64,000 bases of DNA, from NCBI GenBank assembly GCA_030041385.1, contig JASHNY010000020.1, positions 1 through 64,000 on the forward strand. The letters run 5' to 3'. Under the pieces are notes generated by a model that had not been told where the DNA came from, ran no database searches, and saw only the letters and a program-made list of their open reading frames with translations. Made by a program: the position numbers and the translations under genes. Shown here piece by piece: positions 6,704 to 29,070 of the stretch (position 1 is the first letter of the stretch; every line of letters starts with the position of its first letter). The stretch is from Alphaproteobacteria bacterium. Its GTDB lineage: Bacteria > Pseudomonadota > Alphaproteobacteria > ATCC43930 > CGMCC-115725.

Positions 6704-7656
6704 CCGCCGGCCGCTCCCTCGGTATTGACATAGACGGCGTACAGCGAATGGCTCGCGGCCATGAACAGCCGGTTCCGCTTGACCCCGCCGAAGCAGAGAT
6801 TGGCGCAGCGCTCAGGCAGGGCGATGCGCCCGATCATCCTGCCGTCTGGGGCGAACACGGCGACCCCGTTCAGCGCCTCGCTCATCCCCCAGCCGCACCA
6901 GAGGTTCCCCTCGGCATCGCAGCGGAAGCCGTCGGGCGTGCCGTCGCCGACCTCCCCGAAATCGCGCCCGTTGGCGAGGCGGGTGCCGTCGCCGATTACG
7001 TCGAACAGGCGGATCGCGCGGCGCGGCTGGGCGCGCGACTCGACCACGTAAAGCCGCGATTCATCGGGCGAGAAGCACAATCCGTTGGGGCCGCGGATGT
7101 CATCGGCAACGATCGTCACCCGGCCGGTGTGGCCGTCGATCCGGTAGACGTTGGTGACGGGCAGCTCGGGCTCGCTGCGGTTGCCTTCGTAATGGCTGAG
7201 GATGCCGAAGGGCGGGTCGGTGAACCAGATCGACCCATCAGACTTGACCACGACATCGTTCGGCGAATTGAGCGGCTTGCCGTCGAACCGGTTGCACAGC
7301 ACCGTGATCGTGCCGTCATGCTCGGTCCGGGTGACCCGGCGCATGCCGTGCTCGCAGGTGACGAGCCTGCCCTGGCGGTCGCGGGTATTGCCGTTGGAAT
7401 TGTTCGACGGATGGCGAAACACGCTGACCGCGCCGGTCTCTTCCTCCCATTTCAATATGCGGTTATTGGGAATGTCGCTCCACAGCAAAAACCGGCCGTC
7501 GCCGAACCATACCGGGCCTTCGCTCCAGCGGCAGCCGGTGTAGAGCCGTTCGACCGAGGCGTTGAACGGCGGCCGCACGCGCTCGAAGCGCGGGTCGAGC
7601 GTGATCACCGCAGGATCGGGATAAAGCGGGCTCGGCTGCCATTCGGCTGCGGTCAT
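6700..7656 (-). CDS. SMP-30/gluconolactonase/LRE family protein
   Basis: EGPVWFGDGRFLLWSDIPNNRILKW, NSPNDVVVKSDGSIWFTDPPFG, PNGLCFSPDESRLYVVES. Confidence 0.92.
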   Translation of the reverse strand: MTAAEWQPSPLYPDPAVITLDPRFERVRPPFNASVERLYTGCRWSEGPVWFGDGRFLLWSDIPNNRILKWEEETGAVSVFRHPSNNSNGNTRDRQGRLVTCEHGMRRVTRTEHDGTITVLCNRFDGKPLNSPNDVVVKSDGSIWFTDPPFGILSHYEGNRSEPELPVTNVYRIDGHTGRVTIVADDIRGPNGLCFSPDESRLYVVESRAQPRRAIRLFDVIGDGTRLANGRDFGEVGDGTPDGFRCDAEGNLWCGWGMSEALNGVAVFAPDGRMIGRIALPERCANLCFGGVKRNRLFMAASHSLYAVYVNTEGAAGG

Positions 7657-7777
7657 TTGCGGCTCCCTTGCTGGTTCCGGCGCCGTGTGGGCGGGGACGG
7701 ACGAAGCATGGAGCGTTTCTACCGGCGGCTCAAGACCGCGTGGCGCACTGCACCGGCTGCGCGGAGTACGCGCCTCG

Positions 7778-8358
7778 TGTGCCGAATCCGAAATTCGCCA
7801 TATCTTGGGGTGAGGCAGAGCGCGAATTTCGGAGTCGACAGCACCCGGAGCTATTTTGAAAAAAGCTGGTGATCCAATTCAGACGAGTGAATCCCGACCG
7901 TCATTCCGGGGCGGCCCAAAAGGGCCGAGCCCGGAACCCCATGTTCCAGAGGCCGGTGTTCATGGGTTCCGGATTCGCCGCTGCGCGGCGCTCCGGAATG
8001 ACTCGAGTGAAGGGTTTCAAATGTCAGATTCCGACCACTGGTGTGGCCGTGGATTTGAAGTTCGCCAACGCGGCCGCCGCCAAACCCGTGCGAACTGCAA
8101 ATCCGCCACACCTAGTGATCCAATTCAGACGAATGAATCCCGACCGTCATTCCGGGCTCGGCCCACAGGGCCGAGCCCGGAACCCATGTTCCAGAGGCCG
8201 GTGTTCATGGATTCCGGACTCACCGCTGCGCGGCGCTCCGGAATGACTTGAGTGACGGGTTTCAAATGTCAGATTCCAGCCGCTAGTGCGGCCTAGGATT
8301 TGGAGTTCGCAACCGCGCCCGCCACCAAACCCGCGCGAACTTCGAATCCGCCACACTA
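7778..8358. repeat. Composite palindromic repeat locus A: one GAATCCGAAATTCGC-type module plus two tandem ~246-bp units
   Basis: GATCCAATTCAGACG starts at 7871 and again at 8117 (period 246); each unit carries TCATTCCGGG...CCGGAATGAC and GGATTTGRAGTTCGC...GCGAACTKCRAATCCGCCACAC. Confidence 0.85.
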
Positions 8359-8517
8359 GAACGAGCTGGCGATATTGTTGAAGAAGGTCGACACCGAGCT
8401 GCCGACCTGGGTGACGCCGGTAACGATCAGCAGCGAGATCAGCGCTGCGACCAGCGCGTATTCTATCGCTGTGACCCCCAAGGCGTCGCGAATGATCCGT
8501 ATCAATGCCGCGTCCAT
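8356..8517 (-). CDS. Flp/Fap-type (type IVb) pilin subunit, 53 aa
   Basis: Translated by hand from minus strand: MDAALIRIIRDALGVTAIEYALVAALISLLIVTGVTQVGSSVSTFFNNIASSF*; has the Flp pilin G-x-TAIEYALVAALIS motif. Absent from ORF track (too short). Confidence 0.88.
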   Translation of the reverse strand: MDAALIRIIRDALGVTAIEYALVAALISLLIVTGVTQVGSSVSTFFNNIASSF

Positions 8518-8799
8518 CCGCCGGTGCTCCGAAATCGGTCGGTGATCCGATCATCGAGATCGCACGTTTACAAGTCGTAAATTCGCTCTCGATACCGAAA
8601 ACCTTGGCTTTGGCGCGTCGGTCGAGTTGGTTGTCATCAACGCTTCTTCAACGATATTCGCGCCGTTGGCGCCAGCGGGCTTCAGTACTCCCGGGTCGGC
8701 CGGCGACGCGGGTTTGCGCCGGCGGTCGGGGCGCGCCACAATCACCGCAAAACCGGATCAGCGGAGCACCGCCATGCCAACCCTGCCGAGGCCTTTCGA

Positions 8800-9285
8800 A
8801 TGACCATTCCGGCCCCGTTTGCCCGCTTCGAAGGCGAAGTGCTGCCCGAATGGATCGATTGGAACGGCCATTTGAACCTCGCCTATTACGTCGTCCTGTT
8901 CGACAAGGCGACCGACCTGTTGTTCGACGAACTGGGACTCGGCCTCGATTATCGCCGCACCACCAATCTCGGCACGTTCGCGGTCGAATCGCATAACCGG
9001 TACGAGCGCGAATTGCTGGTCGGCGAGCATGTCCGGGTCGCCACGCAGATCATCGCCGCCGACGACAAGCGGCTTTACGTGGCACACGAGATGTTCCGCG
9101 CGGCCGATGGGGTGCGCGCGGCAACGCAGGAATTGATGTTCCTGCACGTCGACCTGGTCGCCCGGCGCGTATGCCCGTTCCCGCCCGGCCTCAAGGCCCG
9201 GGTAGCCGCCGCGGCGGCCGCGCATGCGGTCTTGCCGCGCCCCGACTGGGTCGGCCGCCGCCTGGCGATGCCGGGAGAGCGCTAG
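8800..9285 (+). CDS. Hotdog-fold acyl-CoA thioesterase family protein
   Basis: WIDWNGHLNLAYYVVLFDKATD and FAVESHNRYERELLVGE, typical of 4-hydroxybenzoyl-CoA thioesterase-like proteins. Confidence 0.85.
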   Translation: MTIPAPFARFEGEVLPEWIDWNGHLNLAYYVVLFDKATDLLFDELGLGLDYRRTTNLGTFAVESHNRYERELLVGEHVRVATQIIAADDKRLYVAHEMFRAADGVRAATQELMFLHVDLVARRVCPFPPGLKARVAAAAAAHAVLPRPDWVGRRLAMPGER

Positions 9286-9439
9286 CGTGCCGAATCCTGC
9301 AATTCGCCGTATCTCGGCGCGAGCCTCAAAGCGGATTTCGGATTCGACAGCACACCAGCAACTCTATGAAAACTGGTGCGGATTTGACGTTCGCCAGCAA
9401 GACCGCCGTCAAAATCACGCGAACGTCAAATCCGCGACA
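9286..9439. mobile_element. MITE-like palindromic element flanked by CTAG (9282-9285 and 9440-9443)
   Basis: Two palindromic halves (GAATCCTGCAATTCGC...GCGGATTTCGGATTCG and GCGGATTTGACGTTCGC...GCGAACGTCAAATCCGCGACA) bounded by CTAG on both sides. Confidence 0.7.
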
Positions 9440-10156
9440 CTAGCCGCGCTGTTCCGCACGATGCGCATCGGCCAATTCGGCAAGGCTGGTGAAGCGGAAA
9501 TCGTAGCGGGCTTCGGCCGCCGGGGTCGCACCCCAGCCGGGCGCATCGGCGCGGCGGTCGATCCAGGCCGAATGGAGGCCTGCCGCATTGGCCGGCGCGT
9601 GGTCGTGGTAGAGGCTCTGCGCGACGTGCAGCAATTCGGCCGGGCGGTGCCCCATCTCGCCGAGCCGTGCGACCAGGTAGCGGAAATTGGCGCGATCGGG
9701 CTTGTACGAGCCGATCTCTTCGGCGGTGCAGATCGCGTCGAATTCGACGCCGAGCCGGATATTGCTTTTGGCAAAGCTGGCGCGGTCGACATTCGACAGG
9801 ATGACCAGTTTGTAGAACCGCTTCAGATAGGCGAGGGCCGCCGCCGAATCGGCAAAGGCCGGCCAATCCCCGACCGAGGCGCCGAACGCGCGGGCGGCAG
9901 CGTCGTCGGTTGCGATTGCCCATTCCGCCGCCAGCCGCGCGTAGACGCGCGCCAGCACCTCGCTGTAGCGGAGGCCCGGCGTCTCGGCCTCCTGCACGCT
10001 TTCGTGATGGCCGAAGCGCGCCAGCGCCGCCTCGCGCGCGAGCCCGCCGCCGGCTTTCGCCACCAGCGGCTGCAGCGCGGCCCAGATGCCGCTCTCCCAA
10101 TCGATCAGCGTGCCGTAGCAGTCAAAGCTCAAGACCTTGAAGTCACTCAGCCGCAC
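9440..10156 (-). CDS. Haloacid dehalogenase type II / HAD hydrolase
   Basis: FDCYGTLIDWESG, VILSNVDRASF, SYKPDRANF; GTG start at 10156 likely. Confidence 0.88.
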   Translation of the reverse strand: MRLSDFKVLSFDCYGTLIDWESGIWAALQPLVAKAGGGLAREAALARFGHHESVQEAETPGLRYSEVLARVYARLAAEWAIATDDAAARAFGASVGDWPAFADSAAALAYLKRFYKLVILSNVDRASFAKSNIRLGVEFDAICTAEEIGSYKPDRANFRYLVARLGEMGHRPAELLHVAQSLYHDHAPANAAGLHSAWIDRRADAPGWGATPAAEARYDFRFTSLAELADAHRAEQRG

Positions 10157-10270
10157 GATGAGCCTCCTCGGGCTTCCGGCCTGCAACTTGCCGTCCCGGT
10201 GCGCGGGGGGTGACGACCGGGAGCGGCCGCTCGTAATTTAGCGGCGCGGCGAGAGGGTGGCGAGGCGGCG

Positions 10271-23231: not shown

Positions 23232-23249
23232 GTCGTTTCCTCCTCGGTG

Positions 23250-23405
23250 TCATGGATTTGAAGTTCGCATCATCCGGGTGGCGATCGTTCGCGAGCTTCA
23301 AATCCGAAAATCACACCAGCTTTATAGAGTTGCCGGTATGCTAGCGAATCCGAAATTCGCTTCGGGCCTTACCCCGAGACACGGCGAATTCCGGATTCGG
23401 CACAC
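23250..23405. repeat. Composite palindromic repeat locus C (same family as 9286-9439)
   Basis: GGATTTGAAGTTCGC...GCGAGCTTCAAATCC, then GCTAGCGAATCCGAAATTCGC...GCGAATTCCGGATTCGGCACAC. Confidence 0.7.
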
Positions 23406-23453
23406 TGGAGCGTGGGCGTCACGCCCGGTGGCAGACCCGAGGCCCGCGGTCTT

Positions 23454-28454: not shown

Positions 28455-28654
28455 GGTTGGAATCTGACATTTGAAACCCGTCACGCGAGTCATTCCGGAG
28501 CGCCGCGCAGCGGCGAGTCCGGAATGACGATCGGGGTTCATTCGTCTGAATTGGACTACTGGCTTTTTTCAGAATGGCTCCGGGTGCTTTTCGAATCCGA
28601 AATTCGCGCTCAGCCTCACCCCAAGACATGGCGAATTCGGATTCGGCACACTAG
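28455..28654. repeat. Composite palindromic repeat locus D (same family as loci A-C)
   Basis: Reverse complement of the TCATTCCGG module, then GAATCCGAAATTCGC...GCGAATTCGGATTCGGCACACTAG. Confidence 0.75.
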
Positions 28655-29070
28655 CACTGCATCAGTTCGATGCTCACCCCGTCCGGGGCGGCGACATAGC
28701 ACAACAGGCTGCCGCCGACGCCCTTCTTGAGCGCGACCGGAAAGTCGACGCCCTTGGCGCGCAGCGTGTCGCACAGCGCCGCGAGGTCGCCCTTGTACAG
28801 AAACCCGAAATGGTCGGTGCCCCAGGCGTTGTGGCTGGAGAAATCGGCATAAGGGCGGATCGGCCGTGCCGGCGCGGGGTCCTCGCCGGGCCGGCGGCCG
28901 CGGATCAGGATGGTCATGCCGCCGAGCGAGACGAAGATCTGGGGTGCGCCGCGCGCAACCGTGTCCTTCTCGATCACCGCCCCCAACATCTCGACATACC
29001 ATTGGGCGGATTGGTGTGGGTGCGCGCTGATGATGTGAACGTGGTCGAAGATGAAGGCCGGGTTGCTCAT
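28651..29070 (-). CDS. VOC-family (glyoxalase/bleomycin resistance) protein
   Basis: IFDHVHIISAHPHQSAQWYVEMLGAVI, WGTDHFGFLYKGDLAALCDTLRAKG. Confidence 0.85.
   Translation of the reverse strand: MSNPAFIFDHVHIISAHPHQSAQWYVEMLGAVIEKDTVARGAPQIFVSLGGMTILIRGRRPGEDPAPARPIRPYADFSSHNAWGTDHFGFLYKGDLAALCDTLRAKGVDFPVALKKGVGGSLLCYVAAPDGVSIELMQC

Follow-up and report, generated by a model that had tools for sequence, protein, structure and literature searches.

The 64,000-nucleotide stretch of alphaproteobacterial DNA analysed here (the window) carries, between two convergent genes, a short repeat that very probably belongs to a non-autonomous, MITE-type element family that has spread through the Alphaproteobacteria, inserts into CTAG and duplicates those four base pairs. 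The sequence and its open reading frames confirm the observation that started the analysis, a CTAG on either side of a 154-bp element with the TAG stop of a plus-strand thioesterase gene inside one and that of a minus-strand HAD gene inside the other (Table 1). The sequence-only reading had also called the element palindromic. Strong folding is indeed present, as the element plus its flanking CTAGs forms a much more stable fold than shuffled sequences do, on both strands (z about −5.2 and −5.4; 0 of 200 shuffles as good), but the fold consists of separate hairpins A, linker and B and not of one palindrome. A role as intrinsic terminator was considered and rejected, the one terminator-like site (minus strand) falling within the range obtained from shuffles, and an Rfam search of positions 7600–9600 returned no match near any gathering score.

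Table 1. Features of the thioesterase/HAD junction and other copies of the repeat family in the window
Feature	Position	Strand	Basis
Thioesterase gene, 4HBT_2, 161 aa; stop TAG at 9283–9285	8800–9285	+	ORF
HAD type II (haloacid dehalogenase-like) gene, 248 aa from a putative TTG start at 10186	9440–10186	−	ORF
Left CTAG copy; TAG at 9283–9285 is the thioesterase stop	9282–9285	+	Sequence, ORF
Right CTAG copy; HAD stop TAG is the complement of 9440–9442	9440–9443	−	Sequence, ORF
MITE-like element body, 154 bp; decayed member of the two-hairpin family of about 165 bp	9286–9439		Repeat matches
Hairpin A (CGTGCCGAATCC...GGATTCGACAGCACA); GANTC at 9292 and 9341	9282–9358		Folding, family comparison
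Linker hairpin CACCAG...CTGGTG	9353–9378		Folding
Hairpin B core, perfect 17-bp arms GCGGATTTGACGTTCGC at 9378–9394 and 9419–9435	9378–9435		Inverted repeat
Composite: hairpin A, linker, then alternating other repeat unit (GTCATTCCGGGG...GGAATGAC) and hairpin B	7774–8359		
Full-length family copy, more decayed, in intergenic space	23247–23406	−	
Hairpin-A-only remnant; terminal CTAG at 28651–28654 is the stop of a glyoxalase-family gene, 28651–29064 (−)	28587–28654	−	

A 181-bp query from the window found dozens of dispersed matches in the source genome (4.39 Mb in 264 contigs), and the end pattern TGTGSYGRATYYGAARTTCSC, allowed up to 3 mismatches, matched that genome 55 times forward and 58 times in reverse, against 1 and 1 for a reversed control pattern; given these dispersed matches and this excess over the control, the window element is not a chance structure. 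Well-kept copies share TGTGSYGRATYYGAARTTCSC in inverted orientation at their ends as terminal inverted repeats, which are weak in the window copy, and with a length of about 165 bp, no coding capacity and many dispersed copies the family has the build of a MITE. Matches occur in three of the seven other species of the same genus that were searched (G004, G006 and G007) and are lacking in G001, G002, G003 and G005. When GTDB species genomes were scanned with an exact pattern, several of the assemblies compared being fragmented MAGs, the same design of about 165 bp was found in Caulobacteraceae, Phenylobacterium, Sphingobium, Novosphingobium, Magnetospira, Roseibium, Martelella, Nitratireductor, Hyphomonadaceae and Xanthobacteraceae, whereas Mesorhizobium and Brucella gave element ends or single hairpins. 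A further match came from a possibly misbinned MAG with the label Acidobacteria. With at most 1 mismatch, the end pattern was present in 13 of 290 genomes sampled evenly across the Alphaproteobacteria, a lower bound because the element ends vary between lineages.

Alignment of 11 copies yielded a consensus structure with 51 base pairs, 20 of which show compensatory changes, and with four CTAGs located at the feet of both hairpins; the inner two have decayed in the window copy to CCAG (9355–9358) and CTGG (9373–9376). GANTC, the CcrM site, occurs about twice per copy (13.1 per kb, compared to 1.9 in the surroundings) and sits within the arms of one hairpin. Caulobacter CIR repeats are likewise organised as inverted repeats with GANTC in one repeat. 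A review classes the CcrM-associated intergenic repeats of Caulobacter (Chen and Shapiro 2003), which take their name from CcrM, among MITEs and describes them as strictly intergenic (PMC10969869). The family described here resembles CIR in being found in Caulobacter as well as other Alphaproteobacteria, in lying outside genes with few exceptions and in its roughly two GANTC per copy; compared with CIR1/CIR2 by description, it is probably CIR or its wider kin.

Departures from the two-hairpin form were also observed. Forms of about 72 bp (L119, L129, L130, L158, L166, L188 and L189) combine the left arm of hairpin A with the right arm of hairpin B and keep both outer ends, and several sit exactly on gene stops. 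Two copies in Magnetospira PL24a_bin.52 (L159 and L165) have the same right flank, one being full-length and the other ending after the first hairpin at CTAG, as if the linker and second hairpin had been gained or lost precisely between CTAGs. Many copies in the source genome join hairpin A to the second repeat unit listed in Table 1 rather than directly to hairpin B, and the composite in the window contains two alternations of that unit and hairpin B with a period of about 245 bp.

Tabulation of the flanks, as the sequence-only reading had suggested, places CTAG on both sides of 67 of 91 copies, with mostly one-base decay in the remainder. For the empty-site search, the flanks of single elements were joined in silico and sought in related genomes; the relatives compared are different species, and the empty sites are orthologous loci, not alleles. 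The site filled by L043 in G004 is empty in G006 (L308), where GGCAAT-CTAG-CGCGCA retains a single CTAG, and L041 has two empty sites, in G006 and in the family member G011 (L307 and L313), at which a single CTAG is the stop of the gene. Among Caulobacteraceae-type genomes, L160 (empty sites L265 and L260) and L166 (L263 and L267) give the same result, with a single CTAG at each empty site. Empty sites in other relatives hold a different 4-bp unit (CCTG, CCCG, TTAA, ATAG, CTAT or CTAC), explicable by later mutation or a non-CTAG ancestor, and at a few with no clear 4-bp unit the junction alignment is too poor to read. No base is fixed immediately outside the CTAGs, and the pair that a 6-bp NCTAGN duplication requires is found in 0 of 67 copies; the duplication is therefore 4 bp long, or formally TA within CTAG. 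Two CTAGs at filled sites and one at the relatives' empty sites amount to a target-site duplication as in MITEs, and the proposed 4-bp CTAG duplication thus holds at the level of the family.

At the window locus itself, the thioesterase/HAD pair was sought in sister species for an exact empty site, and none was found, the HAD neighbour being absent; the sister-genome comparison thus bears out the earlier proposal through the single-CTAG sites of relatives and not at this gene pair. The orthologous thioesterase in G004 is also 161 aa long, with no element at that end, and ends in a CTAG that is also the stop of a convergent DctP gene. That shared CTAG makes the ancestral overlap proposed from the sequence likely here as well: a single palindromic CTAG would once have held the overlapping stops of the thioesterase and HAD genes, and its duplication on insertion would have left each gene with a stop of its own. 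Removal of the element and one CTAG from the window would leave the junction GAGAGCG-CTAG-CCGCGCTG, in which the two stops overlap.

The position of each of the 91 non-redundant elements was set against gene calls from a codon-usage caller that was trained on the element loci and recovers the stops of both window genes, counting gene 3′ ends within 400 bp of an element; plasmid records were read with their own annotation. Among 87 element ends that face a gene 3′ end, the stop lies exactly in the terminal CTAG in 45, before the CTAG in 42 and inside the element in none. Besides the window, five convergent pairs (L030, L119, L134, L169 and L183) have both stops in the two terminal sites; the left site of L030 reads GTAG and the right one CTAA, changed only at bases outside either stop. 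Independent annotation of Roseibium plasmid NZ_CP045623 (L227) ends an SDR CDS at the fourth base of the element, in its CTAG. All nine Roseibium/Labrenzia plasmids carry the element beside the SDR gene, with no strain-level empty site among them, and the insertion is therefore older than the divergence of the plasmids. In the two plasmid records examined, the SDR stop lies in the element's CTAG, and the convergent gene beyond the element is of the thioesterase family.

Comparison with CTAGs outside elements accounts for this concentration at gene ends. CTAG is the rarest tetranucleotide there (271 in 600 kb, 0.145 of expectation), with 97 occurrences in genes, 65 at stops, five of these common to two convergent genes, and 109 elsewhere. 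The share at stops among non-genic CTAGs (65 of 174, 37%) does not differ from that of elements outside genes (40 of 89; Fisher p = 0.29), nor do convergent stops held in common (5 of 174 background CTAGs and 5 of 89 elements; p = 0.31). What differs is insertion into genes, seen for 2 of 91 elements, both possibly in shadow ORFs, compared to 97 of 271 background CTAGs (p about 3 × 10−12). A special preference for stop codons was therefore rejected: once genic sites are removed, the share of stop CTAGs equals background, and CTAG specificity with loss of harmful insertions suffices, so that the pattern does not call for a mechanism that recognises stops or convergent pairs specifically. Since CTAG is rare in genes and often a stop, a CTAG-specific element would tend to land at gene ends, where the duplication would always restore the stop, and insertions inside genes would be removed by selection.

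The sequence-only reading had likened the duplication to those made by IS5-family transposases; mobilisation by this family, which the 4-bp duplication fits, remains plausible, whereas none of the transposase loci examined has the element's ends. No autonomous relative with these ends was found among the IS481, DDE_Tnp_1 and Y1 loci or by the DDE_3 search in assemblies that are fragmented. DDE_Tnp_1 loci examined in carriers lack the ends, and a DDE_Tnp_1 match is absent from G054 and G187, two carriers with near-complete genomes. The source genome has a single DDE_Tnp_1 locus (G000 contig C241, L364 1089–1944), an IS5-like IS about 850 bp long (1093–1940) between two CTAGs, of which the left holds the TAG stop of a metallo-beta-lactamase-fold gene. 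Here a different element of this genome has inserted at a stop and is flanked by CTAG; its ends, GTTCTGTGGAC, differ from TGTGSYGRATYYGAARTTCSC. The transposase of this IS is split over two reading frames. E. coli IS5 makes a 4-bp duplication of consensus YTAR, with CTAG the most frequent target (15 of 24; PMC5493358), and ISMysh01 of the same family also has CTAG repeats (PMC9241763); the element shares this 4-bp duplication with the IS5 family, whose members are autonomous and have different terminal repeats. Because IS5 itself prefers CTAG, our leading guess, judged from sequence, is that the mobiliser is most likely an IS5-like transposase acting in trans with a 4-bp CTAG duplication.

Other routes of movement were weighed against the same observations. 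Mobilisation by a CTAG-targeting IS481-family transposase would have a close parallel in TnRErm46/ISRe46 of Rhodococcus equi, which inserts in CTAG and whose duplicated CTAG supplies TAG stops so that target genes stay uninterrupted (PMC6794481), and many element ends read TG...CA; we nonetheless find it quite unlikely, since the duplication in that family is the 6-bp NCTAGN that the free outer bases contradict, the Roseibium right ends are not TG...CA, and the IS481-family loci examined in carriers lack the element's ends, the source genome containing a short fragment match only. An IS630/Tc1-type origin, with only TA duplicated and the G and C belonging to the element's own ends, predicts intact copies of the form C-TA-[G...C]-TA-G that are indistinguishable from a 4-bp CTAG duplication, and the altered sites of L030 agree with it. 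Those sites are equally explained by drift at two bases outside either stop, the outer C and G are nearly always conserved, also at those ends for which the search pattern left them free, and a DDE_3 transposase of IS630 type was sought in the source genome and not found, which together make this origin very improbable. REPs and BIMEs are tandem hairpins with a conserved foot tetranucleotide, dispersed outside genes, and the covarying hairpin arms, the tetranucleotide at each hairpin foot and a 226-aa Y1 gene in the source genome would all suit single-stranded, REP-like movement by a Y1 (IS200/IS605 or RAYT) transposase recognising the hairpins and the CTAG at each end, one CTAG being target and the other the element's own. 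The chance of this is similarly small: most carriers tested have no Y1_Tnp match, the Y1 loci found in the few others are never flanked by the element, and the source-genome locus has no CTAG in 2.5 kb. That RAYT-like gene (L385 666–1346, G000 contig C25) has similar sequences of GTGCATTGTCACCG type on both sides, unlinked to the CTAG element. From REP/BIME systems with a RAYT the element also differs by its CTAG foot instead of a GTAG-type foot, its symmetrical ends and the lack of a linked RAYT.

The flanking CTAGs might also be intrinsic to the element as hairpin feet, with no target duplication and with genes gaining stops by truncation. Conservation of CTAG at the feet of both hairpins, and its pairing in the consensus structure, inner copies included, would agree with this, but we regard it as extremely unlikely: empty sites retain a single 4-bp unit precisely at the junction, several times CTAG, where relatives already have a stop, the G004 thioesterase keeps its length with no element at that end, and truncation would bring the TAG into frame for one third of genes only and leave the others ending inside the element, which none do. 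A bolder account, in our view unlikely, has a class-wide hairpin element whose two-hairpin, four-CTAG form is kept by structural selection and moved by an undescribed mechanism, with CTAG rarity in genes and frequency at TAG stops forming a safe-site rule that makes gene-end insertions, shared convergent stops included, self-repairing. The reading we favour remains the non-autonomous MITE-type family with 4-bp CTAG duplication. Its closest precedents are the Caulobacter CIR repeats and TnRErm46, the latter unlike it in being a 6.9-kb autonomous transposon with 6-bp NCTAGN repeats and other ends. Beyond these precedents, what is added appears to be a class-wide family, its empty sites and a quantitative link of CTAG rarity, stops and shared convergent stops.

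Together, these data put numbers on low-cost spread: the target is rare in coding sequence, often a stop, its own reverse complement and copied on insertion, so that every gene end is left intact, even two overlapping ones. This offers a safe-site rule that can be tested, accounts for the many alphaproteobacterial genes whose ends abut a repeat and warns against calling such stops truncations. It may further point to a CTAG-specific transposase active across the class Alphaproteobacteria.
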